Positions 15,596-64,000 of a stretch of 64,000 nucleotides of DNA are shown here, in pieces. The stretch is from assembly GCA_026168455.1 (NCBI GenBank), contig CM047425.1:40754711-40818710 (forward strand). The letters run 5' to 3'. Position 1 is the stretch's first letter. The number at the start of each line of letters is the position of its first letter. Below the pieces are notes generated by a model, which worked only from the letters and a program-made list of their open reading frames with translations, was not told where the DNA came from and did not search any database. The position numbers and the translations under genes were made by a program. The stretch is from Theocolax elegans. Lineage: Eukaryota > Arthropoda > Insecta > Hymenoptera > Cerocephalidae.

Positions 15596-15703
15596 CAGCA
15601 GAGGCAATTGGATTACGTGCTGTAGTTCAATGTCAGCTTTGAGTACCTTAAATGAGAAGACAACGTAGTAGCCGACGCCTTATTACGGTCCTGTGCAATC
15701 GGC

Positions 15704-16951: not shown

Positions 16952-17230
16952 CAGCGAATCGACAAACCCGAGAAGAAATTCGCCCCTTTGTCTGAGGAGC
17001 TCGCTCAAGTGGGAGTACCTGTGGCAACACCGCCCGAGCGCGCCAAGAAGCGAGTGCGCAAACAGAGACTACAACCGCGTCTCTGGTTGTAGAGGGGGCG
17101 AGCCTTCGTCTTTTTCAGTCCGGTTCATTCCGGTTCCGTCGACGCTATAAGACATACGCGGAAACACATGTTAAACATTGTAATTAGATAATTGTTAAAC
17201 CTTTGTACAGTTTGCAAATAAATGCTCTTT

Positions 17231-17640
17231 AAACAAAACGCCAACCACCAACAATTCCAGGGATACCATTTAGGGTTTTTCTGTCCTCTATTATCTAATG
17301 TAAATGAGGTCGTACTGTGTCAGTGGAACAAAGGAAAAATACTTCTATCTGGCAACACTGAACAACACTCGCGTATTCGATCAGATCCGATCCACCATAC
17401 AGCCTAATTCCAAATATACGGGTGGTTTTCTGTGACATCGAAGATGAAAAAAATGAATGTTGTTACAACTGTGGGAATGTTTTAGAGGTGTCCAGTTGTT
17501 CTTCTGAGTGTTTTAGATTTTTTCGGGGCCATTATTTTAAGTTACAGAGAGACAAAGTTGAAATTTTAGTACTTTTTTGCATTCTATGCCCATTTTAATG
17601 AATTTATCGCACCGTAGATAGGTATATACACTGTAGATAG
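17231..17640. other. Unassigned spacer between two Gypsy remnants
   Basis: No coding or repeat signature recognised. The 5' LTR of the downstream Gypsy would be expected here, but I find no match to its 3' LTR start TGTAACAAAT, so the element is truncated on its left side. Confidence 0.4.
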
Positions 17641-17749
17641 GTTATATAGGCGTTTACGCGGCGATTATACAGCCGCGGATTTCGTCCAGTCAACTAGTGA
17701 CGATGATTTAGTTTCGCGGACTCGTCGCGAACAAGGACTCTGCACCGTT

Positions 17750-19190
17750 TTGAAACATGCAAAATTTAGCGAAGAAGCGCAAGCACAGATTACGCACAGA
17801 CAATTTGAAAACCTCAATCATGCGGATGAGAGCGGATTCTTTCCGCTTGCCAATAGTTCGAAGTCAAATGACAATCAACATGCCGATTCCTATGCGGAAT
17901 CGCAGCATAGCGAGGTTAACGCGGGAAATATCGCGGGAAACCTTGCGAAAAACGCGGCAGAAAACATCGCCGAAAATAATTTGAAATCAAATTTTGAATT
18001 GACTTCGACAAAAACGCTTAGCACAACTATACCGGTAAGACCAATTCCTACCATTTCGACCGCGATGATAACGACCGCTACTACAATTACGTACTCGACG
18101 ACGCAAGCAGCAAGTACGCATTTACAATCAAGAGGTGCAATACCAAAAACGGTATTTTCTTAAAAATAATAATAAAATAGATAATGATATCGTTTTATGT
18201 GCATTAGTTAATTTCGCAGTTTACAACGCTCCAAGGTGGTTAGCCCTGGAGTTGAGTAAAGCGCAATCAAGCGAGGGAGCCTTACAATAAGAGAAGGAGT
18301 TGAATTCTCTAAGGCAGCAATTAGCGGATTTTGCGACGAGTACGCAGCTCCCGACGCAAACGTCAATTGCGGCGGAAAAGCAACGGAAAAATCGCAAAAG
18401 TGTAAATTTTTAGGATACGTTTAATTTAAATTATTTTGAAGCTGATAAGTATCCGCAAGCACCTCAAGCGTCAACGCACACACAAGCGGAAATTAATTCG
18501 GAACCACGTTTAAACGTCAACGCTCCGTTTTATTCGACTCCCACGTCTAGCGACATACGTCAGTTTTCGTCTCTGCCAGCTCTTGCGGATTGGCATGAGT
18601 CTGGAAGGGGGGGAAATGTGCCTGTAGTTACAAGTGATCAACTTACGCAACTCTTGTCGAATATGTCGACGAGAGCGCCTACACAGTCACATGACGTAGG
18701 TCGCACTGTTCGCCAGTGGAATATTAAGTTTTCCGGCGAAAAACGCGAAAGCATCGAGGAATTTATTCAGCGTATAGAAGAATGTCGCAAGTTAGCGCAT
18801 TTTTCCGACGCGGATTTACTGAATGCTTTCTCGGAGTTGTTAACTGGCGTAGCGCTACATTGGTACCGCCAATCGCGGAAAGATTGGAATACTTGGGCTG
18901 ATTTTTGCAATGCTGCTCGACGATGTTATGGAGTTGAGCAGAACTTTCTGCAGCGCTTAATGGCGGAAGCACAAGCACGCAAGCACGCAAGCAGGGTAGA
19001 GAAGAGCCTGCTTGTGATTACATTTTCTGCTTGTTAACCATATTTAGCAGAATGGATGCGCCTCCGAGTAAGCAGTTTCAGCTAGACATGTTGTATGCTA
19101 ACATGTTTCCGTCTGTTCGGAAGTTAGTTCCGGAAAAAAGATTACAAGCGTCGATAGGCTTGTGCAGCTAGCTCGTCAGGCGGAAGAGCT
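17750..19190 (+). pseudogene. Gypsy gag (broken)
   Basis: An N-terminal, Ser/Thr/Asn-rich stretch is open from about 17660 to 18163. After a noncoding break the core resumes at 18618-19037. It contains VRQWNIKFSGEKRESIEEF, then LTGVALHWYRQSRKDWNTW and CYGVEQNFLQRL, which is the Gypsy Gag core pattern (Retrotrans_gag). Related sequence continues in other frames to about 19190. Gag forms the retroelement's virus-like particle; here several stops make it nonfunctional. Confidence 0.8.
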
Positions 19191-42014: not shown

Positions 42015-42052
<38 letters not shown>

Positions 42053-42549
42053 TTATGTATAGGTAGTGTGGAACGGACTCTGTGACGTGACAGCGGGCCC
42101 CGTCGGAGTACATGGGTGCGAGAGAGAGAGAGGTAGAGGGAGTGCGCGCGCAGTGCGTCTCTCTCGTGCTGAGGTTGCTCCGGCGTCATAGACGCCCCGA
42201 TGCAGTGCGTGGGTGTGAGAGAGAGAGGTAGAGGAAGTGCGCGCGCAGTGCGTCTCTCTCTCGTACTGAGAGTGTTCTGACGTTATAGCGGGACCGGAGG
42301 CCCGCGCGTGTATGTGTGAGAGAGAGAGAGAGCAAGAGGGGTTGCGCGCGCAGTGCGTCTCTTGCAGTAAGAAGAGTGACGCATGTAAGAGAGAGAGAGA
42401 GAGAGCACTACTGCGCGTACCCACGCTCTCTTCCTCTACCTCTCTCTCTCGCACTCACGCAGAGATACTGATGATGCGCTAGGGTATTCTGACGCCGTGT
42501 TATAATAGCTGACCCAGAGCGTCTATGTTGGTGTGAGAGAGAGAGAGAG
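41940..42549. repeat. Polinton left terminal inverted repeat
   Basis: 42040-42549 is matched in reverse complement by 61192-61693 (for example ACTTATGTATAGGTAG, GGAACGGACTCTGTGACGT, GACCCAGAGCGTCTATGTTGG). 41940-42040 has the same GA-rich, GCCCGCGCGTG-containing style and probably belongs to the repeat, with its counterpart lost on the right. The interior holds three to four sub-repeats of about 100 bases, each with GCGCGCAGTGCGTCTCT. Confidence 0.92.
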
Positions 42550-43271
42550 TATGCATTTGTAAGAGAGAGAGGAAATGATAGGTGACAATTTTAGATATTG
42601 AACGAATATGTTATTTACGTTTATTATTGGTGGCCCTAAAAAAGGGCCGTTTATTATTATTTATTAAATATAAATTTACAATTTTTTGTAACCGTCTTTC
42701 TGTGGCAATGATTTATTATTTATTGAAACTTTTTCCGTATATTTTTTCCATTGCGACGACATTGAATGATGATTACTGTTATCCTTAGTATTGGATTTTT
42801 TATCGATGAGAGGAACTCGATCTGAACTTTGGTTTGGACCCATCGTGTTTGAATAATCAAACGGAAATGAAATAAAATTTGAACGTAAGCTTATTTTATA
42901 AAATATAAATGTCGTAGGTGTATTCAAAAAGGTTAAAAGTCGACTCGTCGTGAGAAAAGGTCGTATACCCAAAAGTGCAGGTGTGCAGACAATAGAGGCG
43001 AGGGTGACCGGAGGATTTTGGTTTACCGGGAAGCTATTTATCTTAATAGGTAAAGTAAGTATTGCGGTTAGTACGAAAGAGAAGCAATAAATTATCGTAA
43101 GGTGAGCGTATTTAAGAAAATAGAATAAACGCGTGAGAAGATTTTCTTTTTATTTCTATGTTGTAAGCAGGAAGGAAAAATGTTAGGTAAGTAAATACGA
43201 AATACAAAATTATGTACGAGGTAAGTGCCGATTTATTTAAATATTTTACGAGATATTACAGGCAATATATA
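42550..43271. other. Polinton left intergenic region
   Basis: Mostly noncoding. A minus-strand frame at 42676-42972 (98 residues; an internal Met would give a 55-residue Ser/Asn/Lys-rich peptide) has no recognisable domain. I list it here as doubtful rather than as a gene. Confidence 0.4.
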
Positions 43272-44111
43272 TTATACATTGTAATACATACGTATTATTT
43301 CATCACAAATATAATTAGAATGAAAGCATGTTAACTCCAAGTATACAATATCAAAGTAATATTCTGAGAAAAATTTAGACTCTTCCTTATTAAATCGATC
43401 TTTTACTCTCGATTTTATGTCATAATTACCGATCACAAAACTTTTAAAGAAATTTCGTCCTTCGCGTAAATTTAAATTATAATCGGTAACTTTTTCTTTC
43501 ACAATATCGCAAATAAAATTTTTACATTTTTCAATATCGTTGATATAGCGTTCGAGTCGACGATATCGTTCTTCTACACAAAAAATACTATCCTTTAGTC
43601 CTTCGAAAGTTGATTTTTGCATAACTATAGCTGGTTGAAAACATTTTCTCTTCTTTTCTGTTTTGTTTCCGTTGGATAATTTTGACGTTTTATTCAAAAT
43701 AATAGATTTTCCTCCATACGACGTAGCAAACACTATTTCCAAATCGTTGATGTAGATTCTTGTTCGACTTTTATAAGATAAGTCATTGTCGTTATTAAAA
43801 TATTCCGATATTTCGTCGAGTTTATTTTGTAGTTCTACCCAAGTATCCGAATCGATTACTAGTCCTGTCGAGTGAGTTTGATTTAACAATTGAATAACGG
43901 GTTCCATTTTTTGATTATGAAAAACTTGTACACTGACATTTATTATTTTTGTAGCCGATTTATTTAGCGAGTACGAAGTTTCGAGTAAATTTCGATGCAG
44001 CGTATGTCTTTTATCTTCTAAATTCACAGACACTTTTTTCTCACTATCCATTTGTTTGAAGGTTTCGTCTTCGGTAAAAATAAAATCAGTTTCTAACAAT
44101 GCTTGAGTCAT
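43272..44111 (-). CDS. Polinton minus-strand protein, possible PC4-like repeats
   Basis: 279 residues, open from an ATG at 44111 with no breaks. It is the only large intact minus-strand frame of the element. I do not recognise it with confidence. Two segments, STGLVIDSDTWVELQNKLDEI (about residues 81-101) and QPAIVMQKSTFEGLKDSI (about 158-175), share the pattern of the end of a PC4-type transcriptional coactivator domain (hydrophobic strand, small turn, amphipathic helix). Each follows beta-strand-like sequence (RIYINDLEIVFATSYGGKSI). A tandem single-stranded-DNA-binding protein is therefore possible. The rest is helical and charged, without signal peptide or membrane segment. Confidence 0.6.
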   Translation of the reverse strand: MTQALLETDFIFTEDETFKQMDSEKKVSVNLEDKRHTLHRNLLETSYSLNKSATKIINVSVQVFHNQKMEPVIQLLNQTHSTGLVIDSDTWVELQNKLDEISEYFNNDNDLSYKSRTRIYINDLEIVFATSYGGKSIILNKTSKLSNGNKTEKKRKCFQPAIVMQKSTFEGLKDSIFCVEERYRRLERYINDIEKCKNFICDIVKEKVTDYNLNLREGRNFFKSFVIGNYDIKSRVKDRFNKEESKFFSEYYFDIVYLELTCFHSNYICDEIIRMYYNV

Positions 44112-44959
44112 CTTTGTAATACTTTATGTCGCACAGGTCTCGACGAGTTTACCGATTATAGGAAAACTAGTTTACAGAAAAGATGCTGTAATACTGCATT
44201 CAGGGTGAACGGTGTGTCCCTTTTAAACCCTGGCCGGTCCCGCGCAAAGGTCGCTCGTAAAATAGGAGGGGGTCTATTTAGAGGGTTACGGGTTTGTACA
44301 AGTAACTTCAAAGTCACATGTATTAAGAAAGAGGTTCTTTTACATATTTTAGAAGAGAAGGAAAACGCGTAAAGATACTTGTTTCGAACGAAAATGCATA
44401 AGGCAAAAGACAACGATGTCTCGAAAGAAAATTTTTGTTCGTACAAATTTCAAAAGAAAACCCTGATCGTAAAATTCTACCAATTATTGAAAATTTATAA
44501 GGAGTCGGTAAAGTAACGCGAAACGCAAAAAATTTATGTTTCCTTCTTTTTCAATCAATCGTAGGTAACGTTTTTCGAAAGATTTTTCTAAACGTCTTTG
44601 AGGTTTTTCGTTGTGTCTAGAAATTTACAAAAAAAAAGTAAGAGTGGGGTTGTCATAGAAAAAGTTAATTTGCTAGGAAAAAATGGAGATCGTAGTTAGT
44701 TCAAATCTTGCTTTCGACGCGAAAGAACCTTAACGCGTACATAAAAATATAATTTCGTGTTCGAGTTCTATTACAAAAACTATATATTATAAAACTGTGA
44801 AAGTGTATTTGTGAATGTACTGAAAAAAGTGACACTGAATAAAAAAGTACACACATTCGCAAATTAACGCAGGAAAAATTTTAAACTGCAAAAAACGAAC
44901 GTTTAAAATAATTATTAAAAATAGAAATCGCGCAACGATAAATAAAACAAGTGTTCGCA

Positions 44960-45790: not shown

Positions 45791-46228
45791 GTGAGTAACA
45801 CTTTATTACTTTTTACAATAGATATAGAAATATTTTAACACTTTTTGTTCAATACAACACTACAATAATCTGTATTGAAAATTAAAAATTAAAATAATGA
45901 AAATAATAAAACGTGTTAAAATAATTCTATAATTGTAAACATATATAGGTTTAAAAGTAATATTAATTTAATAATATATATTTAAGCTCGAAGACGATTG
46001 TTTTTCGACAATCGAGAATATCTGTCGACGGCTTGGCGAGTCGGGGTATGGATAAGCGAGGAGTACGAGCTGTCCCCTCACTTATATCCGCCAACAGCCG
46101 ATTCAATTTTACGAGCGTTCGATTCTTTACGGCATCGCGTTGAAAAATAATTAAAATAATAACTTTTAAATTTTTATAAAATTAGTAAGCGAATTATATA
46201 GTAATAATAATATTATATTTTTATTTAG
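45791..46228 (+). other. Intron in polymerase B gene
   Basis: 438 bases, starting GTGAGT and ending TTTTATTTAG. It contains stops in every frame and is AT-rich. A GC-rich inverted repeat, CTGTCGACGGCTTGGCGAG near 46022 and a CGCCAACAGCC-type segment near 46088, lies inside. Spliced introns are uncommon but known in Polintons. Confidence 0.65.
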
Positions 46229-49200
46229 CGTCTTCGTGTGAAAAACAAATAGGTGGAGGCCGTACAGCTGAATTTCAACGTGTACATCTTCAGGCAAATA
46301 GCGAACGATACGTGCCCCATTTTCGTACATTAGGTCGCGAGATAAAATTTAAGATTACAGATTATGCAGGAATCGAAAATCCTGTTAAATATGTCGAAGG
46401 CGCGTTTCATGAAATAACTCGTTATATATTAAAATATCGCTCGAACAGTGATATGATCGGATTAACTTTAAGTTCCGACAAATTTGCGTTAGGAAGTGCC
46501 GGGTCGCGTTTTACACGCGTACAAGATTTTCAATCAAAAGAAATATGGGAATTGTTTGGCAAGGTCTGTCAAAGCAATACCGATTTTTCAATTGATGAAT
46601 CGTTGAATATCAGTGTTGTTTACGTTGAAATGCCCGTCGGAAAGGGAAATTCGGGTGTTGAGAACAAAGAGGTTGATTTTCATAAAAATTCAATTCTCAG
46701 AATAAAAAATAAAGATAATTTATGTCTACCCCGCGCTCTTGCTTGCGGTGAAGTCTACTCGAGGAAAGTAGACACTCCCGAATGGCGAAGCGAATGGAAG
46801 GCTATTTCTCACCACATGCGTTTTCGACAAACAGAGTGTGCACGAAACTTGTGCACTCTTGCGAAAATAAAAGTTCCAGAAAACGGATGTGGTCCTGATG
46901 AATTTAGGTTATTTCAAAATTATTTTCTTGAAAAAAATATAAAATTAATAATTTTTGAAGAAAATAATTTTGGAAAAGGCGCAAAACCGATTTTTGACGG
47001 AACATCGCATTTTTCTGACGAAAGTATAAATATTAAAACAATTTATTTATTGTATAATTTTAATAATAAACATTTTGATTTAATCTTAAATATATTAGGT
47101 ATCGTGTCAAAATTTCGATATTGCATAAATTGCAATGTAGCATACAAAAACGTTCTGTCTCACAAGTGTACGAAACAATGCACTCAATGTTTAAATGATT
47201 CAAATTGTGAAAAATTAAACGAAATTTCGTGCATTGATTGTAAGCGCGTATTTTATAATGACGCGTGTATTTAAATGCACAAGCGACCCGGCTCGATAAG
47301 TTGCAAAGCATCAAAAAAAACTGTAAAAAGCGTATGCGATAGTTTAAAATATTGTTCTACATGTAACCTTATTGTAGATTTAAGAAAAGAATTACACATT
47401 TGCGGTGAAAAATATTGTAGTAGATGTCGTTCGAGACATTCTATAAATAAATTATGTAATATTGAACCAATTCAAGAAACGCGTGTAAGGAGGAAAAATA
47501 ATTATCATCCGACTACTCAATTTATTTTTTATGATTTTGAGACCCGTCAAGATGAAATTTACGGAGAAAAATCTTTGAAACATAGCGTTAATTTATGTGT
47601 CGCACAATTATGTTGCGACGATTGTAAAAAAACTGATTTGAAAAATTTGTGTTCGTTTTGCGGTGTTCGTCAACACGTATTCGAAGGTGATAATTCGATA
47701 CGTGATTTCTTAAATTTAGTCATTCGAAGAAAAACGAATTTTAATGATATTATTTGTATTGCGCATAACGCACGGGCTTTCGACTCTCAATTTATTTTAA
47801 AATATTTAATCGATTTTTCTAAAATTTATTTTAATGAAAATGTTTCGCCAACCGTTATTATGAACGGTCGAAATATTATAAAATTGCAATTAAAAAATAC
47901 AAAACTTATTGATAGTATCAATTACATGCCAATGAAATTGGCAAATTTACCCAAAGCATTTGGGCTTTCAGTTGATGTAAAGAAAGGCTACTTTCCACAT
48001 CTTTTTAATACAAAAGAAAATATAAATTATGTAGGCTCGATTCCGGATGATAAATATTTTTCCCCCGAAACGATGTCGAACGAAGATCGACAAACCTTCT
48101 ATAATTGGTACAATAGTATTGACAAAAATAATGTATATAATTTACGCAACGAAATAATAAAATATTGTATAGACGATAAAAATATATTGCGAGAGGCGTG
48201 TATAAATTTTCGCGAAATATTTAAAAAATATAACGTTTGCCCATTTGAAGAAGCTGTAACGATAGCTTCAGCCTGTTCGATATTATACCGTAAAAATTTT
48301 TTAAAAAAAGATACAATAGGTATAATACCGTCAACTGGCTATGCGCAAACGGGACAAAATTCACAGGAAGCTATTTCGTGGCTTCTGTGCGAAGAAAAAA
48401 AAATCGGTCGCGAAATTATACACGCCGCACGCGCTCGAGAATATATTTTAACCGAAGGTTTCCGAGTTGATGGTTTTTTACCGAGCGTAAACCATAAGGG
48501 TACCGTTTATGAATATCACGGTTGTTTTTACCACGGGTGTCCTCGCTGTTTTTCGTCGAGTCGTGATAAAATTTTAACAGACGGTTCGACTTTTAACAGT
48601 CGTTACGAAAAAACCGTTCTAAAAACTAAACACATTGAAAGCTTCGGATATATTGTAATAGAAATGTGGGGGTGTGATTTCAAAGAATATTTATCAGATA
48701 ATACCGATTTAAATAACTTTTTAAAATCACATCCTCTTTTAAAAGGGATTAAAATAGAACCGAGGGATGCGTTTTACGGTGGTCGTACAGGTAATACCGT
48801 AATTATGTACGAGACGAAAGACAGCGAAAAAATTAAATATTTAGATGTATGTTCGCTGTATCCGTACATTAACAAGTACGGAAAATACCCGCTAGGTCAT
48901 CCAAAAATTTATATTAGTCAAAATTGTAACGAATTAGCAGGTACCGATTTTAAAAATTTCAATAATGTCGAAGGTTTAGTAAAATGCGACATTTTACCTC
49001 CGCAAAATTTATTTCATCCCGTGTTACCGGTAAAAATGCACGAAAGATTACTTTTTCCATTGTGTCGTACGTGTACAGAAATGCTAAATGAGCAAGAGTG
49101 TACGCACGACCGGGAAGAAGAACGTATTTTTACCGGTACATGGGTGTCTGATGAAATAAAAAAAAGTTTAGAACGCGGCTATAAATTAATAAAAATTCAC

Positions 49201-50025
49201 GCGATTTGGCAGTTTAGTGTTTGTCAATATACAGCCAATACAGACGTTCTTTTTAACGAATATATTAATACTTTTTTAAAATTAAAGCAAGAGGCCAGTG
49301 GGTATCCCAGTGAATGTACAGACGACATAAAAGAAAAACAATTTATAGAAGAGTATAAAAATAAAGAGGGTATAAATTTAGATCCGAAATTAATTTAAAG
49401 AAACCCTGGTTTACGCTCGGTAGCTAAATTATGTTTAAATTCATTCTGGGGAAAGTTTGGGCAACGCGATAATCTGACGAGAACGGAAATCGTCAAAGAT
49501 TATCAAAGCTTGCTCAAACTTTTTTCAGACCCCGAGATAAATGTGAAACAAATCGTTATAGCGAACGACGAGGTACTCTATGTCTCTATAGAATACATTA
49601 AAGAAACAGAAACTGAGTCGGGGGGTAGCAACGTAGCGATCGCCGCCTACAATACAGCACACGCTCGTTTGTTATTGTACTCGTATTTAGAAAAACTAGA
49701 TAGACGCGTACTTTACTACGACACCGACTCAATTATTTTTACAAGTAAACCGAGTGATACGTACGAACCAAAGGTAGGGTCCATGCTAGGCGAATTAACC
49801 TGCGAATTGGAAATTTACGGTAAAGGTTCATATATTGAAAAATTTGTTTCAGGAGGTCCAAAATTTTATGCTTTTAAGGTAAGAAATAGTAAAAATGAAA
49901 CATTTGAAATTTGTAAAAATAAAGGAATAAAATTAAATTATGAAAATCTTATTAATAATAGAAACGATGACGATAAAAATAAAATACAATTGCAGTTCAA
50001 TTCGCGAAGAAACAAAAACTTGTAG
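46229..50025 (+). pseudogene. polB: Protein-primed DNA polymerase B (Polinton)
   Basis: Replicates the element's linear DNA by protein priming. The N-terminal region (46229-47271) has the Polinton signature (VPHFRTLGREIKFKITDYAG, KNKDNLCLPRALACG) and a Cys-rich zinc region (CINCNVAYKNVLSHKC). Then come exonuclease motifs FYDFETRQD (about 47527) and NARAFDSQF (about 47770), polymerase motif A DVCSLYPYINKYG (about 48844), motif B LCLNSFWGKFGQR (about 49430) and motif C YYDTDSI (about 49712). In-frame TAA codons at 47272-47274 and 49396-49398 break it; otherwise the frame is continuous. It ends at 50025, shortly after SGGPKFYAFKV, so the C-terminus looks short. Confidence 0.95.
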
Positions 50026-50140: not shown

Positions 50141-51211
50141 TGTAACGGGGTACAATCTTTCGCGTCGGTAGGGGTAAAGGGATCAGTTGCTACGGCACTG
50201 CCTAGTTATACTCCTAGGCGGTGCTCCGAGAGTGCGCGGCGGATTCAAATCAGTGAACCCCGCGCACGACCTACCGTTGCGATGTCCGTTAACAACCGCG
50301 AGATCACTTGCCGATCTCGCGTCTTTTTACAGCTAAAACGTCTTGAGCTGAAAAGGACCGCGACTAAAAGGGATAAATTCGCGGTAAGTTTACCTCGGCC
50401 GCTCCTGAAACGGAGAGGGCAGTATTCGGGATAACGGGAATAACGTACGCCGGTAATCAATAATCAAACTCGTACTCGGATATTGATTACATTTGAATTT
50501 TATTCAAGTTAAAGGAATAGAAAAAAAGTTTAACAAAGAACGAAGATTTAACAAAAGCCGTATATAGGCCGCGTGAGGTCTCGCGACGAGGTGTAACCAC
50601 CGGGGTTACTCGCACTATCTCTTTTTCTAGCATGCGTACGCGGACGCCCGTTTGCTACCTCGCCGTCGCGCGCGGGCGAGATCCGCCGATCCCGAACTTA
50701 TAGTTATAGCCGTAAAGAGAGAGTCTTTACGGCTTCGGCGACTCGCGAGTGGTGCACCACGTACCTTAAATCTCGATTCTCCCCGTCGATGCGTTCGACT
50801 TCGCCTGTTTCCCCTCTCTCCGTCGGGCTCTCGCGCGCGGCAACTTCGCCGTTCTCGCAGGTTCCTGGGAGTCGCTGGAGCTGTGCACTTAACACCAGCA
50901 CGCTCACTCCACCAAGTCACTCACTCTTCACGGCGCGAAACCCAGAACCCGAGCAAGAATCCGCGATAACGATTCTTGTTCTCTTGCCGCAAAATATCAA
51001 GGAAGGCGTTACCGGCGACGTGTCTATCTACGATGACTCGCATAAACTCTCTATATACTCTCCTCAGTCAGCTTGCGCATCGGACCATTATTAGTCCTTA
51101 AGCGGCTTACGCGCGGGCTTTCCCGATCACCTACGAGCTTTTCCGATCGTCACTCGCGCTCGTTATAAGGTATAGCTTCATACGCATAAGAGTATGTAGC
51201 TTACCTTTACA
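50141..51211. repeat. Solo LTR inside the Polinton
   Basis: Starts TGTAACGGGG, ends CCTTTACA, and AACG lies on both sides (50137-50140 and 51212-51215). The 4-base duplication and TG...CA ends indicate a Gypsy-type solo LTR of 1071 bases. It is far more GC-rich than its AT-rich neighbourhood. A TATA-like CTATATACTCTCC at about 51049 would be its promoter. Proteins predicted from it are accidental. Confidence 0.8.
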
Positions 51212-51423: not shown

Positions 51424-52254
51424 TTAACAAGGTGTATCGGTTGGCCAGAGTGGATGATGAATTCCGCTTGCATCGAATATCGCTAAATCTAACGCTACGA
51501 GTAACCAGCCTAAATGTATCTCGGTATTATCGTTATCTTGACACGTTAAGCAAGTATACGCAGTGTCGTGAAATAGTCCTTTATGCTGAAAAATTGCGGT
51601 TAACTTTCTATCAGTCATTACGTCCTTCATAATTTTACAAGCTTTGACGGTCCATCGATGCGGTTTATCAGTTTTTGGTAATATGTTTGAAAGTCCGCAT
51701 AGGTATGACTCTCGAGGGTAGCAGCATGAAACGATCGTCCAAGTCATAGATCCCATTTTCTATTACGTCTTGGGTAAGCTCGATACTATCTCCAGTGTCT
51801 ACCGATCTGCAACGTTCGATGACGTCATCCGTGATATATCGTCCCCATTCACCGTTTACCTTTATAGCTATAAACTGACTTGGCTGAAAAAATAATATTA
51901 ATAAATTATTTAATTATTAAATTAATTTTCATTGTCATTGTTTAAATTTCTTTGTATACTTACATAAAGGTCTGCATAATTTAATTTACTAGTCACAGGT
52001 ACAATGACTACTCTTTCTTGATTATTTTCAGACACAATTTTTTCGGTGTGAATGTATTTCGGTACTACTTCGTAATACTCGTTGATTTCCTTCTGTTGAG
52101 CACTGTACGCTTCGTCTTCGTCGATTATTTGTACGTAGAAAGACGAAGGGGTATGAAACGTTGACACTCTTACACTTTGTTTCGAATTAATTATTCTTCT
52201 CATGTCGCGATGTTTTAAATCTCTCAAAACGTGTATCCTACAGTTACTCGACAT
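51424..52254 (-). pseudogene. Tudor-domain gene carried by the Polinton
   Basis: Minus strand, two exons. Exon 1 (52254-51964) starts AAAATGTCG and has SVRVSTFHTPSSFYVQIIDE, typical of an extended Tudor domain's opening strand. An 80-base intron (GTAAGT...TTTTTTCAG, 51963-51884) follows. Exon 2 (51883-51424) has QFIAIKVNGEWGRYI, RCRSVDTGDSIELTQD, IYDLDDRFMLLPSRVIPM: the VDTGD turn, then L-D-D-x-F then LP, as in Tejas/TDRD5 and TDRD7 proteins. A frameshift near 51680 then leads to KPHRWTVKACKIMKDV and TEIHLGWLLVALDLAIFD, the domain's end. Tudor domains bind methylarginine tails of Piwi proteins. No LOTUS domain. The frameshift may be real or a base-call error. Function here is inference. Confidence 0.65.
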
Positions 52255-53494: not shown

Positions 53495-53631
53495 AATTAA
53501 CATTGCGCAGCGTCCGCTAAATATGCTTTTTATTCCGCGTTTAGCTAATTAAATAAAACGACGCTAAAACTCTAGCAGTGCGTTGACCGCCGCCGCCGCC
53601 GCCGCCGAACGCGGAACGACCTTATCACAAA

Positions 53632-54294
53632 ATGGATACGCGTTGGCGTCATCCGTGGACTTGTACGATTTCCGGTCCTACGAGTTGTGGTAAATCGGTG
53701 TGGGTTCGAAAATTCATAAAGTTTCGTACTCAAATGACCGACGTTGTTTTCGATAGGATTATTTTTTATTACGGAGAGTGGCAAGACGGTTACAAAAGTC
53801 AAGAGTTTTCGTGTGTTGAATTTCGCGAGGGTCTACCGAGACCCGAAGATTATTCAAACGATCCACATTTGAAAAAATTAATTATAATCGACGACTTGAT
53901 GCGTGAATCGTCAAACAGTGTTATAGTCGATTTATTTACCAAAGGATGTCATCATAAAAATATAAGTGTTATTTTTATAACTCAAAATATTTTTCATCAA
54001 GGACAGGGTCAACGCGACGTCAGCTTAAACTCAAATTACATAGTGTTGTTTAAAAATCCTCGGGACCAAGCTCAAATTCGATATCTCGCGCGACAAGTGT
54101 ACCCCGAAGACGCTAAATTTTTGCAGGAAGCATATCTAGATGCTGTAAAACAGGCATACGGTTATCTTTTATTAGATTTGACGCAGACAACACCCGACGA
54201 GTTTCGATTTCGAAGCTGTATATTTCCAGACGACGAGTTTCATTACGTCTATGTGCCTAAAAATCGTAGTAGTACATTTATAAAATATATTTAA
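53632..54294 (+). CDS. DNA-packaging ATPase (A32/FtsK-HerA type)
   Basis: 220 residues, fully open from ATG at 53632, which follows an in-frame stop and a (CCG)6 run. Walker A is GPTSCGKS (residues about 15-22); Walker B is KKLIIIDDLM (about 82-91). A conserved ISVIFITQNIFHQG segment (about 113-126, sensor-like) and NYIVLFKNPRDQAQIR follow, all typical of Polinton and adintovirus packaging ATPases that pump genomes into capsids. It is one of the few core genes here without a stop. Confidence 0.94.
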   Translation: MDTRWRHPWTCTISGPTSCGKSVWVRKFIKFRTQMTDVVFDRIIFYYGEWQDGYKSQEFSCVEFREGLPRPEDYSNDPHLKKLIIIDDLMRESSNSVIVDLFTKGCHHKNISVIFITQNIFHQGQGQRDVSLNSNYIVLFKNPRDQAQIRYLARQVYPEDAKFLQEAYLDAVKQAYGYLLLDLTQTTPDEFRFRSCIFPDDEFHYVYVPKNRSSTFIKYI

Positions 54295-55513: not shown

Positions 55514-56595
55514 ATAAAAGGTTAGAGTCTCAGTATTTTGATCCTTCGCACGAAGCAGGGTTTTCGGGTGCAAGAAATTTAATCAGATTGAATAAAGATG
55601 TACCGCGGGAACAGATCTATAAATAGTTGGAAAAATACGACGCTTATACTTTACATCGTCCTGTACGAAGAAAGTTTAAGAGATTGTGTTACAACGTGTC
55701 GTATTTAGATCAAGTTTGGGAGGTCGATTTACAGGACTTGCGCTCAATCAAAAATTACAACGACGGAGTGTCTTACGTTTTGGTGGCGATCGACGTTTTA
55801 AGTAAATTTGTGTGGGTGGAACCTTTGAAAGACAAATCGAGTGACCAAGAAACCGAGGCAATCAAAAAAATTTTAAAACGAAGCGGAGAACGTTTTCCGT
55901 ACATGGTTCAAAGCGATCGAGGAAAGGAGTTTCTCGGTAAATTTATGCAAAATTTTTTAAAACGTAATGATATTCGATTTCGCGTTGTGCGTAATCCGGA
56001 TGTGAAGGCTGCGGTGGTTGAACGAGTAAATAGAACTCTGAAAGAACGTATGTGACGTTATTTCACACATAAAAATACTCGTAGGTACATTGACGTATTA
56101 CAACACATCGTCAAGGCTTACAATAACACAAGACATTCTAGCATTAAAATGACACCGGCTTCGGTAACTATTCACAACGAAGAGATTGCGCGAAAAAATT
56201 TAGAACGTCTGTGCAGAAACAAATTACCGAAACGGAAAAAGAATATATACAAAGTCGGTAGTTACGTTCGAATCAGTAGAGACAAGAACGCTTTTGAAAA
56301 AGGTTACGTCAGAGGATGGCAAGAGGAAATTTTTATAATTAAAAGTGTTGCGAAAAAACAAAACATTTACGTTTATACTTTGACCGATTTGGTCGGTGAA
56401 AGCATTGAAGGATTCTTTTATCCCGAAGAACTCACGGCCGTTGATAGTTGTCGCGTAGAAAATCGTGAACACAAAATAGATAAAATTATACGTAGTAAAG
56501 GCAAAGGTAAACGTAAACAGTAGTTCGTCAGTTGGGTTGGATATCCTGAAAAATTTAATTCGTGGGTCTCTGTCAACGATTTAAAAGCATTGTAA
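55492..56595 (+). pseudogene. Retroviral-type integrase with chromodomain
   Basis: Inserts the element into the host genome. The frame runs from ATG at 55492 to TAA at 56593-56595, with in-frame stops at 55624-55626, 56053-56055 and 56521-56523. The DDE core shows YLDQVWEVDLQDL (first D), YVLVAIDVLSKFVWVEPL, MVQSDRGKEFLGKF (second D) and AAVVERVNRTLKER (E). After the core come NNTRHSSIKMTPASV and an SH3-like KVGSYVRISRD. The C-terminus has a chromodomain-like VSWVGYPEKFNSWVSV, lying after the third stop. The minor capsid gene begins one base after the end. Confidence 0.93.
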
Positions 56596-56596
56596 A

Positions 56597-57373
56597 ATGG
56601 ATTCCGACGATTTTACCATTGTTTTACCGAGCAACAGTAGTATGAAATATTTTCCAGACAATACAACGACGTGCTTTTCAACTAAATTACCAAAGCAGAT
56701 AGCTTTATAAGGACGATGGATGGTTGGACTATCCGAGATACACGTACCCTGCACTACCCTGCACTTGAGCAGAGAGGAATCAAAATTATCGTCAACGGAA
56801 AACTATTATTTTCAACACGGTATATACGATGATATTAATCAGCTTGTCGATTGTATAAACGACAGTTTATTCAAATATCACGGCAACACTGAAATTGAAA
56901 AATTAATCTATAACGAAAACGGAGGTTTCGTACAAATGATAAAATTCAAAGAAAATGAAAATCGTACGAAACCGTTTGCTACATTTTCAACGACGGTTAA
57001 TCGTATTTTAGGTTTCGATTTGAACGAAACGTTAGAATTTGAAAGTTACGATGGATCGACGATTCAAGTAGCAAATTTTCCCGCCAGCCTCTCGAGAGCC
57101 ATACCCGATCAACTTTTTGTTTATTCAAATCTGTGTGAACCTTGTATAGTAGGAGATTCTCACGCACCACTGCTTCGCATAGTGAATATTCAATCGAAAC
57201 ACTTTAATTATGGAAACACTGTAGTTAAACGTTTTGCACCCGTCATTTATACACCCATACTTTACAATTGTTTTCAAGTTATCGGCATTGATATAAGAGA
57301 TCAATATGGTCATCCAATACTATTCGAGTTTGGTACGTTGACCGCAGCGTTACATTTTAAAAGGATTGACTAA
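56597..57373 (+). pseudogene. Minor capsid (penton-like) protein
   Basis: Starts ATG at 56597 (DSDDFTIVLPSNSS), with an in-frame TAA at 56708-56710. It then runs open for 217 residues with ATFSTTVNRILGFDLN, FPASLSRAIPDQLFVYSNL and FQVIGIDIRDQYGHPILFEF. This arrangement, right before the pVI-like and major capsid genes, is that of the Polinton penton-type single jelly-roll capsid protein that closes the icosahedral vertices. It would be about 258 residues. Confidence 0.82.
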
Positions 57374-57389
57374 GTGTCGTTCGTTTGGC

Positions 57390-57968
57390 ATGGCTTATTA
57401 CTCTCTTTATTACGTTAGTCAAATTGGAAGCGGACGGGGCGTACATCACGTTTATGCAGGTTCAACATCGCAACGAGGACACGGTGTGGGTAGTTGGCTC
57501 GCAGGTTTATTTAGAAGAGCGGTGCCTTTGATTGCTAAAGGTGCTCGCGCCCTTGGTAAAGAAGCAGTCCGAGCAGGCGTCAACATATTAGATGACGTGT
57601 CGGATGGAAATCTGTCGTTCAAAAAATCGTTTAATAATCGTATGAACGAATCTAGTAAAAATTTGAAACGTAAAGCCGTAGACAAAATTAATAAAATGAT
57701 GGAGGGGTCTGGATATAAAACATTCGACAAAAGGAGAGCTCTACAGTTTCCGTGGAACGGTGAAAGTGTACGTATCAAACAGCTTAAACCTCGTAAAAAG
57801 TACAAACGTCGTCAAAGTATAAAGAAAAGGAAACGTACAAAAAAAACCAAGTCTTTAAAACGGTTACAACCAAAAGTGAAGCGTAAGAAACAGAATAAAA
57901 AGAAGAAATCGAGGAAAATATCGAAAACAAAAAAGAAGACAAAGAATAATTTTGACGTTTTCAATTAA
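57390..57968 (+). CDS. pVI/pX-like basic virion protein
   Basis: 192 residues from ATG at 57390. An N-terminal part with VSQIGSGRGVHHVYAGS (Gly-rich, resembling adenain cleavage sites) leads into an amphipathic helix SWLAGLFRRAVPLIAKGARA and then GKEAVRAGVNILDDVSDGN. The C-terminus (from about residue 115) is almost wholly Lys/Arg. In Polintons such a protein between the capsid genes is compared with adenovirus pVI/pX: membrane-active helix plus DNA-binding tail. Intact. Confidence 0.7.
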   Translation: MAYYSLYYVSQIGSGRGVHHVYAGSTSQRGHGVGSWLAGLFRRAVPLIAKGARALGKEAVRAGVNILDDVSDGNLSFKKSFNNRMNESSKNLKRKAVDKINKMMEGSGYKTFDKRRALQFPWNGESVRIKQLKPRKKYKRRQSIKKRKRTKKTKSLKRLQPKVKRKKQNKKKKSRKISKTKKKTKNNFDVFN

Positions 57969-57970
57969 AA

Positions 57971-59281
57971 ATGGCGTTTTTACATTCTCACAGCTCAGAG
58001 TGTCTCAAAAGTGAGTTGGATATATTTTCACTCCCTCAAATGCAAACCAGTGTAGAATCGAGTTGTTGGACTACTTATAATCCAATTTCGTCGTTAAACG
58101 ACGATTCGCCCATCGAATTTTGCGTTCAAAATCAAGGAGAAGATTACCTGGATCTTGCGCATACACTTCTCAAAGTTTGTGTAAAAATCAAGCCTTATTC
58201 GAAAGACGATGACAAACACGTAGGACCTGTAAATAATTTCTTACACTCGTTATTTAATCAAATCGATATTTATTTTAATCAGAAACCAATCACTCCTCCG
58301 AATAACGCTTATCCGTACAGAGCGTACATAGAAACACTCTTGAATTACGACCCAGCAGCTAAAGAATCGCATCTATCGACGACTTTGTGGTACGCAGCTA
58401 CACCTAGAAAGATGGACAGCACCCCTGACGAGGGTACAAACGCAGGACTTGCAAACAGACAAAATTTTACATCCGATGGCAAAACCGTCGATCTCATTGG
58501 ACATTTGCATTGCGATATTTTTAATCAGGATAAATTACTCATCAATGGCGTCGAAATGAAAATACGCCTTGTACGTTCCAAGGACTCAGTTTGTTTAATG
58601 GATTCGTCAGCCGCAGGCTCATACACCGTAAACATCACCGAAGCAAATTTACTCGTAAGACGCGTGAAAATAAGTCCTGGAATTCTATTGGCCCATGCAA
58701 AAACTCTCGCAACTACAACCGCTAAATATCCCATAACCAGAGTGGAAATCAAAACATTCACGATACATAGCGGTGTCTTGGGTGAAACACTCGACAACGT
58801 GATTTTAGGACAACTACTGAAACGAGTGATACTGGGATTTGTTGATAATAAGGCTTTCAATGGAAACAAAACTTTGAATCCTTTCAATTTTCAAAATTAG
58901 GGTATAAATTACTTGTCTCTCTACGTAGATGGTGTACCTTCGAAACCTTTACAACCTACGTTTTCGAATACAAGACCAATGTACGTTGACGCATATCACA
59001 CCTTGTTCTCAGGTACTGGTATACATTTTCTTAACGAAGGAAATTCTATCAGTAGAGAGAATTACCCTAATGGTTATTGTCTATTCGCTTTCGATCTTAC
59101 ACCAGATTTTTCGGCAAATAGTTTTTCTCATTGGAATTTAGTAAAATCTGGAAGTCTCAGAATCGAAGTTAAATTTCAAAGTGCATCGAATAAAACGATT
59201 AATTGTATCGTTTATGCCGAGTTTGACAACGTTCTTGAAATCGACTCTGCTAGACAGGTCGTAACAGATTTTCATTCTTAA
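57971..59281 (+). pseudogene. Major capsid protein (double jelly-roll hexon)
   Basis: Starts ATG at 57971 and ends at 59281, about 436 codons, with an in-frame TAG at 58898-58900. The frame is otherwise continuous. Recognisable segments include WTTYNPISSLNDDSPIEF, NNFLHSLFNQIDIYFNQKP, YPYRAYIETLLNYDPAAKE, SLYVDGVPSKPLQPTF, HTLFSGTGIHFLNEGN and YCLFAFDLTPDFSAN. These are hallmarks of Polinton/adintovirus MCP, which trimerises to build the capsid. The stop removes the second jelly roll's final part, so no functional capsid is expected. Confidence 0.94.
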
Positions 59282-59365: not shown

Positions 59366-60388
59366 AGGTATTCTGCTGAGCCAAGGAAAAACATTTTGTC
59401 AGTTCAGCTTGTTACCTTGAGTGGTGTAGTACAAGTGACTCAAGTTCTCCGCAACTCAAACGGCATGGAGAAGCTCGATTATATAATCGATATTCAAGCG
59501 TTTCACGACAAGGAAGGTCTCTTACTACCGAAAGAAATTGCTGTTATCGGCGTAGATTGCAATTTCATAGCGCACTGGCTGATCAAGGCTCCATACGACT
59601 ACACAGAACTGTCCAAGGGTATCGTAGCCACTAACAGTTACTTAACGTGCTATCACCATGGCATAGAATGGTTCGACGGTGAATCCAACAGTGTCGACGT
59701 GTACAACAGTCTACGAGAAGTTGCACGAAACGCTTTGAGGATCTACGTTAGGGTATAAATACCTAAAATTTTATTCCTTCAAAACCTTCTCGCTAGACAA
59801 ATAATCAATTTGGAGGAGTTCAACTGTCCGTCGTTTAGAAACCTTCCACGCGTTAACGACCACTTTTGTTTTTTACATGGACGGAAAAGGGAGTACATGA
59901 GTTGTGCATTGACATATGCATATAAACTACGTATTTGGCTGCATAAAACATTAGCCTATCGCCCTTGAACCAGCAAAGTCATCGATCTAAAAGAAAAAAA
60001 GAAGGAAACGGAAAAAGAGGACATCAACAAGGACAAAAGACGACATACAATTATTGCGTCTACGAGACAAGGAACTCCGTCTGGGAAACCACGACAAAAA
60101 ACGCCAACACCAACCAAATCAAGACAGAGCACTCCGATAACCGTAACTTGTACTGCATACTCAACTCCTATAGATGCTAGCAACACAAGTATTTCCACAA
60201 TCTCCCAAGATACGATCGATGCCGATCATTTATACGACATAGTACGCGAGGAGGAGGAAGCCGCTGCAAAGCATGAACACGTTGCAAATACTCAACGCAA
60301 TAAAAATTTTGCCTCTGCAGACAGTGGGAGTGTACCCTGCGGACAAGATTCCTCAGATTCTGACGAAGCCGACTGCAATTGTTGTTAA
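59366..60388 (+). pseudogene. Broken Polinton frame before the protease
   Basis: One frame holds VQLVTLSGVVQVTQVLRN, AVIGVDCNFIAHWLIKAPY and HHGIEWFDGE, then a TAA (59756-59758), then IINLEEFNCPSF and HFCFLHGRKREYMSC. A TGA (59966-59968) is followed by a Lys/Thr/Ser-rich stretch and an acidic, Cys-ending tail (to 60388). The first two parts belong to a family common in insect Polintons, unnamed to me. Whether the part after 59968 is the same protein is uncertain. No upstream ATG in frame. The tail overlaps the protease start in another frame. Confidence 0.6.
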
Positions 60389-60734
60389 CAATGAGGACCA
60401 CCGAAAATCCGGTGAGCATTGGCTGGCCATCTACATCGATAAACGCGGAATCGGATACTTCTTTGACAGTTTCGGTCGACCACCCACCGTACCACAACAT
60501 ATTCAATGTCTCCGAAGAAACTGTAAGGTTTACACCTGGAGTCCTAAGCAGCTACAAGATTTCGCTTCTATCCTGTGCGGTCAGTATTGCGTTAATTTCA
60601 TTCATCACATGTCTCACGGTCATTGCATGGACAGTTTTTGGAGATTGTTCACCGACGATACTGCATACAACGATAAATTAAATTTAAAATTATTTTATAA
60701 GAATATCAACAATAATTTTAATTATAATATATAA
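60273..60734 (+). CDS. Adenain-like cysteine protease
   Basis: 153 residues, intact from ATG at 60273. Catalytic residues are visible in the Ulp1/adenain order: His in GEHWLAIYIDK (about residue 49), Asp in GYFFDSFGRPP (about 65), then ASILCGQYCVNFIHHM with the nucleophilic Cys (about 103 or 107) after a Gln-containing LQDF segment. In Polintons this maturation protease cleaves capsid precursor proteins at Gly-rich sites such as those of the pVI-like protein. A short hydrophilic tail ends the gene 460 bases before the right repeat. Confidence 0.9.
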   Translation: MNTLQILNAIKILPLQTVGVYPADKIPQILTKPTAIVVNNEDHRKSGEHWLAIYIDKRGIGYFFDSFGRPPTVPQHIQCLRRNCKVYTWSPKQLQDFASILCGQYCVNFIHHMSHGHCMDSFWRLFTDDTAYNDKLNLKLFYKNINNNFNYNI

Positions 60735-61191
60735 ACAGGTACATTAGGTGTAAGTTTCTATTATTAACGTAATATATATTTAACCGAATGCAAAACACGT
60801 ATAATTTTACTCTTATTTACTCTATATCTAAGTGTGTGAATTACTATAAGTTTTATCAGGTCAACCGGAATCACTGTCTATTTATAAGTTTCGTATAATA
60901 AAATGTGTGTGAGTGTCTTTGCGTCTATTCTTAAGCAACTCTTATACTTAATATTAACCGAGTGTCAAATATAGTTTTAGTTTTATGTATTGTATAATCA
61001 TCTATATGTATATCTCTGCGTGCGTAATTATTCATTCTATGTCTCGTTCTCTCCTTTTATATTATAATACTTGAATAAACATCTGGGAATTTATCTACAA
61101 ATTACGTACATTTAATTATTTAACCCTCTCACCTCCAACTCTCATTCGTACCATGCTAAATATAAGTCTATACGCATACTGTATACACACA
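60735..61191. other. Polinton right noncoding region
   Basis: AT-rich, with no gene seen. Scattered AATAAA-like signals (for example TTGAATAAAC near 61073) could end the rightmost transcripts. Confidence 0.5.
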
Positions 61192-61691
61192 CACTCTCTC
61201 TCTCTCACACCAACATAGACGCTCTGGGTCAGCTATTATAACACGGCGTCAGAATACCCTAGCGCATCATCAGTATCTCTGCGTGAGTGCGAGAGGTAGA
61301 GGAAGAGAGCGTGGGTACGCGCAGTAGTGCTCTCTCTCTCTCTCTCTTACATGCGTCACTCTTCTTACTGCAAGAGACGCACTGCGCGCGCAACCCCTCT
61401 TGCTCTCTCTCTCTCTCACACATACACGCGCGGGCCTCCGGCCCCGCTGTAACGTCAGAACACTCTCAGTACGAGAGAGAGACGCACTGCGCGCGCACTC
61501 CCTCTACCTCTCTCTCTCACACCCACGCACTGCATCGGGGCGTCTATGACGCCGGAGCAACCTCAGCACGAGAGAGACGCACTGCGCGCGCACTCCCTCT
61601 ACCTCTCTCTCTCGCACCCATGTACTCCGACGGGGCCCGCTGTGACGTCACAGAGTCCGTTCCACCCTACCTATACATAAGTAAGAGAGAG

Positions 61692-61693
<2 letters not shown>
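61192..61693. repeat. Polinton right terminal inverted repeat (truncated)
   Basis: Reverse complement of 42040-42549 with few differences (for example GGTAGGGTGGAACGG against GGTAGTGTGGAACGG). The outer 100 bases seen on the left are missing; the repeat passes directly into the GATA tail of a LINE. Peptides predicted across it are made of repeat sequence. Confidence 0.93.
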
Positions 61694-61722
<29 letters not shown>

Positions 61723-64000
61723 TTATTAACCTGGGGGTATAACCCCAAAAGGTTCAAAGATTACAAAATTATTTACAAAATAATCGCTAATTATACAAAC
61801 ATTATATACATATACATATTTATACGCAGTCGCAAGAAAACATAAATTAATTTTTTGTTTGTTTATTTGTTGACGCTCAGGTTTACGAGATTAAACTATT
61901 AATTACTAAAGAAATTTGTACAATACAATCAGGAATTAAATTAAGAAATAAGAAATAACACATCATGCAGTTTGTGAGATGAACTTAGAATAAATTGTAC
62001 GTATCATCACAGTCGAAAAGCCATTCTCTTAGTAATTTTTTAAAGCTGTTTAAGTTATTTATATTTAAATCGGGCAACGGTGGAGTTATCGCGTTCAGCA
62101 AGTAGGATGTATAGGTGACAAATGCGCTCCTCCAGGTTTCTGTCCTAAAGGGCGCAATTACCAAAGGCTTGGCAGGTAGACGTGACGATTGTCGAAGCCC
62201 AGTGCAAGAATTTACAAGTTTAAAAGTATCATATAGATATGACGGTACACCTAAGCTCAACACTTTAAAGGTCACCACACCCGCCAGAAATTCGCGGCGC
62301 CGCGCGACGGACATCCACCCCAGTTCCCTTCTAAAAGGTGTTACATGATCACGCCAGCCAATACTGCCATGAACAAACCGCACGCCGCATTCTGGGCTCG
62401 TTGTAAGCGGAGATTCTGATCCCTATTAAGGGAGATGTAAACTGCAGCTGCATAATCGAAATGAGGAAAAATGAGCGCCCGCACCAACAAAGATCTAACC
62501 TCTCTTGTTAAAGCATTTCTGAATTGTCTAAGCGAGCGCAGACCCAAAAAAACCCTTTGCCTAACCGCAACGATATGTTCACTCCAACTTAAAAGCGGGT
62601 TCAAAATGATGCCCAGGCTTTTGACCTTATTTTCATAAGGAATGAATGTACCATCGACAACTATGCAGGGCAAGCTTTGCAAATCAAAGGTATCGAGGTA
62701 TGCCTGACTCCCGAAAATCATCGCCTTAGTTTTTTGAGCATTAAGGTAAAGACCGTTTGAAGAGGCCCACCGTGAAACCACCGCGACATCATTATTCAAC
62801 AGCTCGAGCGCAGAACGAAAACGGGCGAGTCTCTCATGATGTTTGCCAGGTGAGAAGGAGAGGTAGATTTGTGTATCGTCAGCAAAAATTAGATGACGAG
62901 TGTGCCTCAGATTCTTCGAAATGTCGTTTATAAATACCAGAAAGAGAAGAGGACCGAGCACACTACCCTGTGGGACACCAGAACTGACCGATTTCCAATC
63001 TGTACTCGCTCCTACACCTGTCGAAATCGCCTGCTTTCTATTTTGGAGGTAAGAGGCGAACCATTTGATGGTGTTATCATCACAGTTTATAAACTTGAGT
63101 TTGCGAAGAAGCTGGTCGTGAGGAACAGTGTCAAACGCCTTAGAGAAGTCAAACTGGATGAGGATGGTGATCATGCGTTTTTCGATCGCGTACTTAATGT
63201 CATCTGTAAGCCGAATAAGGGCTGTCTGTGTACTATGACCGGGCCGAAAACCTGCCTGAAAGGGATCAATAATGTTATTTAATGTAAGAAATTGATGCAG
63301 TTGTTGGTGCACGCATCTCTCCAGAATCTTCGAAATCTCACATAGTCTTGCAATGGGTCGAGTATCAGATGGTGACGTTAAAGTTTTGGTTTTAGCTAGC
63401 GGTAAAAGGAGTGATTGTTTCCAGGGGCCAGGAAAAACAGCACTTTCTATCGACAATCTAAAGAGCTTGCTCAACGGACCGACGAGGACAGGAGCTGCCA
63501 ACTGTAGCATGGAAATTGAAATTTGATCGTGCCCTATAGCTTTTGATCTGGAGAGGTGAATCGCTTTATCAATACTATCAGGTGATGGTGGCTTAAGGCT
63601 AAAAGACGGATAATCAAAGTGTGGGGCGACCTCAGAAAGAATACCAAGTAACCCACTGGGTGTGACTTCCGGCGAGGCGTTCGACACCACCGCGTAGTGC
63701 TCGTTCAACAAATCAAGACTAAAGCACAAAGTTGGATCCGGCAAGATTTGTTTCTTAAAGCCTAGGTGACGAATTTGTGACCATTTGTCAGATAGTGAAT
63801 TCGATGACGCTATTTTAGCTGCAAAAAATTTATTTTTAGCTGTGTCCAATTTGTTTTTGCATACCGCGCGGAGAGTTTTAAATTGGATCATGAGCGCTGG
63901 GTTTGTTTTGGCTCGCTTGTAGACACGATTTCTCTCCCTCATTAAGTCACGGAGTGCGTTGTCAACCCAAGGTTTACGCCTCGGGCGGGATGTACATGGC
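61694..64000 (-). mobile_element. Jockey-like LINE running off the window
   Basis: On the minus strand, the RT gene is followed by a 3' untranslated region and a hairpin GGGGTTATACCCC (61734-61746), then AATAAATT and a (TATC)n tail at 61694-61721. It inserted into the right repeat of the Polinton. It continues past the window end upstream of the RT, so it could be full length. It is the same family as the truncated LINE at 22743-24055. Confidence 0.9.
61985..64000 (-). pseudogene. LINE reverse transcriptase (partial, one frameshift)
   Basis: The frame is open from the window edge (64000) to 62341, with a linker after an endonuclease lying outside (KPWVDNALRDLM). RT motifs: WKQSLLLPLAKTKT, DTRPIARLCEISKILER, IDPFQAGFRPGHSTQTALI, ILIQFDFSKAFDTVPH, SGVPQGSVLGPLLFLVFIND and HLIFADDTQIYLS with the catalytic FADD, then NAQKTKAMIFGSQAYL. 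Near 62380 the sequence shifts frame and continues at 62383-61985 (GWRDHVTPFRRELGWMSVAR, KKLLREWLFDCDD). That single frameshift is the only break I see, so this is a young copy or has a base-call error. Confidence 0.93.

Follow-up and report, generated by a model that had tools for sequence, protein, structure and literature searches.

One family of Polinton DNA transposons in the hymenopteran Theocolax elegans carries a host-type gene predicted to encode an extended Tudor (eTudor) domain. The gene belongs to a single Polinton family, and it sits in one slot, between the genes for DNA polymerase B and the packaging-type ATPase, in most close copies. We studied one such copy, located in a stretch of 64,000 nucleotides (GCA_026168455.1, contig CM047425.1, positions 40,754,711 to 40,818,710; hereafter the window), and compared it with its relatives throughout the genome. 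A first-pass annotation of the window, made from the letters alone, had proposed that a Tudor gene was captured by a Polinton. This proposal was borne out, since the gene travels at the same position in many copies and bears a signature of selection.

The Tudor gene and its copies

The gene lies on the reverse strand, its tail facing that of the polymerase gene and its head that of the ATPase gene. Exon 1 (51964..52254, reverse strand) comprises 291 nt or 97 codons, starts with an ATG at 52254 and encodes the N-terminal part of the extended Tudor domain, including the signature SFYVQIIDE. It is followed by a phase-0 GT-AG intron of 80 nt (51884..51963, reverse strand) with the donor GTAAGT and the acceptor TTTCAG. 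Exon 2 (51424..51883, reverse strand) encodes the Tudor core and the SNase-like part, including SVDTGDSIEL and YDLDDRFMLLPS. The first-pass annotation had described a compact gene in the polymerase-ATPase gap, on the opposite strand and with an 80-base GT-AG intron, and all of these are in place. Its gene model at 51424..52254 is correct as to exons, intron and signatures, but it overlooked that the frame of exon 2 is broken in the window copy.

In many other copies exon 2 has an open frame of 162 amino acids, and the intact product, 249 residues long, is an eTudor protein that stands alone. Besides the window, 42 places were tested for openness (best matches together with divergent ones, a non-random choice); the whole gene was fully open in 13 of them, one having an altered C-terminus. 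Over 830 nt, the whole Tudor gene, three places do not differ at all, which suggests recent activity of the element. GT and AG were retained in 33 of the 33 copies aligned at both splice sites, a weak point because few changes are expected there.

Searching the genome with exon 1 yielded 116 matches at E≤1e-3, which merge to about 97 places. We then scored 150 of 913 candidate relatives of the ATPase; 77 of these were at least 70% identical to it and 73 were 62–69% identical. A Tudor exon was present within 6 kb of 66 of the 77 close matches, on the opposite strand in 66 of 66, versus none of the 73 more distant ones within the same distance. Among the 116 exon-1 matches, 35 had no ATPase within 6 kb among the 150 scored. 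The tail of the Tudor gene faces the polymerase end in 20 of 23 distinct places; the DNA fetched for the other three does not show the polymerase end.

We also fetched 13 slots of other Polinton families. The open reading frames (ORFs) of polymerase and ATPase were spaced by 0.15–0.83 kb in ten of them and by 3.35 kb in L032, while in L035 and L040 no polymerase was found next to the ATPase. A Tudor profile found nothing in any of the 13 slots, the best match (E 0.45) being located outside the slot.

The encoded domain

Pfam PF00567 matched exon 1 alone with E 1.7e-4 and 22.0 bits, just below the cut-off of 23, and exon 2 had no Pfam match, neither in the window nor in an undamaged copy. We therefore note the results of a host eTudor profile, made from five Tudor domains of the same genome, with 2,000 shuffles per exon as controls. 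When the exons were searched apart, exon 1 scored 15.9 bits and exon 2 of the undamaged copy 37.7 bits, and 0 of 2,000 shuffles reached the score in each case. Two multi-Tudor domains that had been found independently of exon 2 gave 25.3 bits for exon 2 and 13.2 bits for exon 1, again with 0 of 2,000 shuffles each. Across 1,773 ORFs from the window and the 13 other Polinton slots, three pieces from the window ranked first, second and third with the five-domain profile, in the correct order along the domain (E 5.7e-4, 9.8e-4 and 0.12, the last alone being insignificant).

The reverse search gave a corresponding picture. A host Tejas-type Tudor exon, searched against the 658 Mb genome at E≤10, returned 56 matches. 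Six of them are host Tudor exons, the query included, and the remaining 50 are Polinton exon-2 places, the best of which had E 0.057. Searching PDB by sequence matched no Tudor protein chain, and PHROGs likewise gave no result. The extended Tudor signature reported in the first-pass annotation is thus supported by profile search, both exons exceeding 2,000 shuffles with the host profile. On these profile matches we regard it as settled that the captured gene is predicted to encode a real extended Tudor domain, that is, a Tudor and an SNase-like part.

Selection on the Tudor gene

To compare changes of different age classes we aligned 43 distinct places (the window included, 20 picked for divergence) with one undamaged reference copy. 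Changes private to one place were synonymous in 59 cases and non-synonymous in 216 (21% synonymous, the neutral expectation being 21–26%). Changes in two places numbered 24 and 38, respectively, and changes in three or more places 35 and 17 (67% synonymous). The private class differed from the class of three or more places (Fisher P=2.4e-10), and so did 35 of 52 from a neutral fraction of 0.256 (P=3e-10). Arithmetic on the counts puts the ratio of non-synonymous to synonymous rates (dN/dS) near 0.15 for changes in three or more places. Private changes and the intron served as the internal comparison, and misalignment near insertions or deletions could add private changes. The excess of synonymous changes among shared, as opposed to private, differences argues that the gene was selected while the element moved and drifted after landing. 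Judged by these counts, the Tudor gene is under purifying selection during transposition, with its copies drifting after insertion.

Relation to host Tudor genes

Ranked by raw score, the top partner of exon 2 was a Tudor exon from a Tejas-type gene of the host (31% over 54 amino acids); the best host Tejas-type domain scored 85 and one multi-Tudor domain 74, among host Tudor genes that form an incomplete list. In the tree, exon 2 joined the Tejas trio plus one multi-Tudor domain with support of 74/80, on a branch of 3.78 that calls for a long-branch warning. The LOTUS domain (OST-HTH, PF12872) had no match in either exon, nor in the 249-residue product; three host Tejas-type genes do match it. 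The Tejas/TDRD5-like identity originally assigned to the gene is consequently not supported, as LOTUS is absent, the tree is weak and a multi-Tudor domain groups equally. Several Tejas/TDRD5-type genes exist in the host, two being neighbours at C5:66313183 and C5:66319476 and a third lying on C2.

One multi-Tudor gene of the host has a phase-0 intron at almost the same position, which the three Tejas-type genes lack. The idea that the retained intron reflects capture as DNA gains modest support from this. The multi-Tudor genes L072 and L073 (C3:61.03 Mb) have near-identical neighbouring exons, and L072 is interrupted by a stop at a point where L079 continues.

Exon 2 had 132 matches in the genome at E≤10, three of which were looked up as non-copies. 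As progenitors all three were rejected: L064 contains a helicase ORF of Helitron-type appearance (E 0.5), L065 is noise (E 0.6), and L066 is a host Tejas-type Tudor gene (E 2.0) rather than a near-identical source. Among these three we saw no near-identical host progenitor; not all of the 132 exon-2 and 116 exon-1 matches were checked for Polinton neighbours. With a Tudor match present, other Polintons of the genome carrying the gene and no near-identical host gene found, the outcomes that the first-pass annotation had named as telling against capture did not appear.

The methyl-arginine cage and a possible role

The symmetric dimethylarginine (sDMA) cage of TDRD1 TD3 is formed by F767, Y774, F791 and Y794, with R775 and D793 beside it (PMC9200344; this and the papers below are cited for excerpts of their text). 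Mapped by eye, the cage positions of the Polinton Tudor are I104 or K105, G111, S124 and T127, while R112 and D126 are kept. All four cage aromatics are thus replaced in this mapping by eye, and a simple methyl-arginine decoy, one form of the decoy role that the first-pass annotation had raised beside steering to germ granules, is for that reason unlikely. The replaced positions are nearly constant: among copies that have letters at the position, G111, for example, stands in 39 of 41 and T127 in 37 of 39. This argues that the loss of the cage is old and has been kept. One host multi-Tudor domain (L072/L073) reads DTGE at the cage, resembling the DTGD of the Polinton gene.

The missing cage does not exclude the domain because known eTudors also lack it. 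Krimper eTud1, in which three of four cage aromatics are absent, binds Ago3 in its unmethylated form, and an incomplete cage may favour arginine that carries no methyl groups (PMC8249470). Vreteno has a second, cage-independent surface (PMC10711660). In view of the cage-poor eTudors and the Vreteno surface, we think a Tudor/PIWI partner bound independently of methylation more likely than an sDMA decoy.

The explanation that we prefer as a whole, at somewhat short of even chances, is a captured and selected eTudor gene that would act in the germ line on such a methylation-independent Tudor/PIWI partner. One Polinton family would have taken up a host-type eTudor gene as DNA, together with its intron. 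The protein would be made in the host germ line and would bind a component of the Tudor/PIWI network without arginine methylation, in the manner in which Krimper eTud1 binds unmethylated Ago3. Two outcomes are conceivable: competition with a host Tudor scaffold could weaken silencing of the element, or element products could be tethered in germ granules and so reach the next generation. More tentatively, we propose that the Tudor protein of an animal DNA transposon enters the Tudor/PIWI network and blunts or redirects silencing by Piwi-interacting RNAs (piRNAs), which would amount to a protein-based counter-defence kept by selection.

Several points weigh against this account. Exon 1 was weaker with smaller profiles, its score being reached by 9 of 2,000 shuffles with the Tejas trio, 11 of 2,000 with the best Tejas domain alone and 2 of 2,000 with one multi-Tudor domain. 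Exon 2 itself had led to one of the five domains in the profile. No relative of exon 2 was found in the protein database, where none of eight candidates scored, nor of either exon in IMG/VR, and the gene has been seen in one genome only. Its assignment to a host family is weak, the closest one appearing ambiguous between Tejas-type and multi-Tudor domains. Furthermore, 11 of the 77 close ATPase matches have no Tudor exon within 6 kb, and two of them, L090 and L092, may have lacked the gene from the outset.

Most of these 11 look like deletions or truncations. We fetched ten of them, 2.65 kb each. In L085 and L089 a Tudor tail remains beside a deletion; in L086, L087, L088, L091 and L094 the family sequence stops short of the Tudor gene; in L093 the polymerase extends up to the ATPase match; and in L090 a degraded polymerase adjoins the ATPase. 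L092 is a sister copy at 75–79% DNA identity, in which some 80 bp separate the polymerase from the region upstream of the ATPase and the insert is absent. It looks like the pre-capture state, with deletion as the alternative. Near the eleventh match (C4:53.33 Mb) lies a match to the Tudor tail.

A further point against our preferred account is that the Tudor/SNase fold could act in virion assembly or nucleic-acid binding instead. The gene might then serve the element itself, in virion assembly, genome packaging or DNA replication, without any bearing on piRNAs, the eTudor fold having been put to new use, once its cage was lost, for binding proteins or nucleic acids. The gene's place among replication and packaging genes, its very long branch in the tree and the near-constancy of the non-aromatic residues at the cage positions (mapped by eye) would fit such a service. 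However, the more distant families in the genome do without the gene (0 of 73 scored), which argues that it is not a core structural part, and the cage-side Arg and Asp as well as the SNase-like half are retained as in host eTudors. We consider a role of this kind the main rival, weakened by the distant families and somewhat less likely than the preferred account.

Alternatively, the Tudor protein might only place the nucleoprotein of the element in the germ plasm for transmission, leaving silencing unweakened. Tudor domains do place proteins in germ granules, and deletion of the LOTR-1 Tudor domain reduced the adult germline granules of LOTR-1 by 85% (PMC9200344). Yet Pfam finds no second, cargo-carrying domain in either exon, and we regard placement alone as unlikely.

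That the gene is a neutral passenger, a captured fragment that spread with the element without function, is highly improbable. It would be compatible with the 29 of 42 places that are not fully open and with the neutral ratio of private changes (59 of 275 synonymous), but the comparison of shared with private changes (35 of 52 shared changes being synonymous) speaks against it, as do the 13 of 42 fully open places and, weakly, the splice sites. Finally, the first-pass annotation had offered the alternative that a piece of a host gene landed by chance in a single dead Polinton. This would suit the dead window copy and the extra insertion in its polymerase-Tudor gap, but it can be dismissed given about 97 genome places and recurrence beside the ATPase in constant orientation (66 of 66).

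Comparison with known systems

Like other Mavericks/Polintons, the element has a polymerase B, an integrase, candidates for ATPase and protease, long terminal inverted repeats and a length of about 20 kb. It differs in that, in the family studied here, a Tudor gene of host type separates polymerase from ATPase, whereas the 13 slots of other Polintons are without a Tudor match. Tejas/TDRD5 and Tapas/TDRD7 are germ-granule proteins with LOTUS and Tudor domains, Tejas/TDRD5 having Vasa and PIWI as partners in nuage. The Tejas-type exon is the best raw-score partner of exon 2, but in contrast to these proteins the Polinton product stands alone, has no LOTUS match, has its intron elsewhere and has lost the cage aromatics, as judged by eye. 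Krimper eTud1 and TDRD2 offer a closer parallel in this respect: their cage is incomplete, with aromatics replaced, the eTudor framework is kept, and they bind unmethylated arginine peptides (PMC8249470). The pocket residues of the Polinton Tudor are not the same, however, and the likeness to Krimper is one of description.

Two further systems resemble the proposed counter-defence by description. VANC proteins of VANDAL elements in Arabidopsis are encoded by the element and may counter host silencing (PMC10398659, PMC5735166), but they belong to another kingdom and to a DNA methylation pathway. TART-A of Drosophila is a transposon reported to target the piRNA machinery (PMC7785250). There, piRNAs of the transposon target a piRNA factor (PMC12992792, citing Ellison et al. 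2020, which we take to be the TART-A paper), whereas the Polinton carries a protein-coding gene. In the open-licence literature we found no report of a Tudor gene in a Polinton, Maverick or adintovirus; the excerpts of PMC12859917 and PMC11244446 mention Polinton and Tudor in unconnected topics. Polintons themselves are known; one that has captured a Tudor gene and kept it under selection would, as far as that literature goes, be new.

Genes of the Piwi pathway often evolve fast, for which one of the explanations put forward is an arms race with transposons. Evidence for anti-silencing by transposons is described as scarce, and the search for transposon-encoded evasion is named as promising, in an excerpt of PMC12992792. 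The present gene is a candidate for such evasion, with a family of recent copies, a sign of selection, a defined domain, distant families without the gene and a sister copy with an empty slot. If true, a host-type gene of the kind that organises defence would be carried by the element and used against piRNA silencing, kept by selection as the elements multiplied.

The Polinton copy in the window

Inverted repeats, Pfam matches and ORFs show that the Polinton spans about 42.0 to 61.7 kb of the window, about 20 kb. The inner part of the left terminal inverted repeat lies at 42019..42553 by repeat comparison, its outer end not being fixed, and the right repeat lies at 61188..61714, its outer end apparently cut off by a reverse-transcriptase element. 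The repeats pair in arms of 329 nt (98% complementary), 145 nt (85%) and 120 nt (96%), as befits the long repeats of a Polinton. An ORF of 283 amino acids (43272..44123, reverse strand) adjoins the left repeat on the strand opposite to most genes and has no Pfam match above cut-off.

The polymerase B region (46189..50025, forward strand) consists of ORFs separated by in-frame stops. PF03175 gave 133.6 bits for 47275..49398, identifying a polymerase B, and 25.6 bits (cut-off 25.8) for 49399..50025; the part at 46189..47274 has no Pfam match, but it aligns with the corresponding polymerase region of other Polintons. An extra GC-rich insertion of 1.07 kb (50142..51211) separates the polymerase from the Tudor gene, and at the empty site there is an overlap of 5 nt. 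Among 20 distinct places readable on both sides, only the window copy and the C139 copy have it.

The packaging-type ATPase (53587..54294, forward strand) is matched weakly, below cut-off, by ATPase_2 (E 0.0014) and Pox_A32 (E 0.0037, 17.2 bits). A retroviral-type integrase (rve; 55627..56523, forward strand) is interrupted by an in-frame stop, PF00665 giving 52.5 bits for 55627..56055. ORFs at 56711..59278 had no match to capsid proteins or other families in the Pfam comparison, the only one made for them. A candidate adenovirus-type protease (60243..60734, forward strand) reached 16.4 bits with PF00770 (Peptidase_C5), below the cut-off of 21.3.

Where the right inverted repeat breaks off, a reverse-transcriptase element (RVT_1, PF00078, 130.8 bits) with a TCTA-repeat tail occupies 61695..63999. 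Mavericks/Polintons leave a 6-bp target-site duplication, which cannot be read at the right end because that end is replaced by this element. With polymerase and integrase split by in-frame stops and the right repeat running into another element, the window copy is dead. Outside the Polinton, ORFs at 14566..19037 resemble, by eye, a Ty3-type retroelement with reverse transcriptase and integrase. The Polinton load of the genome is very large, many of the ATPase candidates scored being 62–69% identical with open frames.
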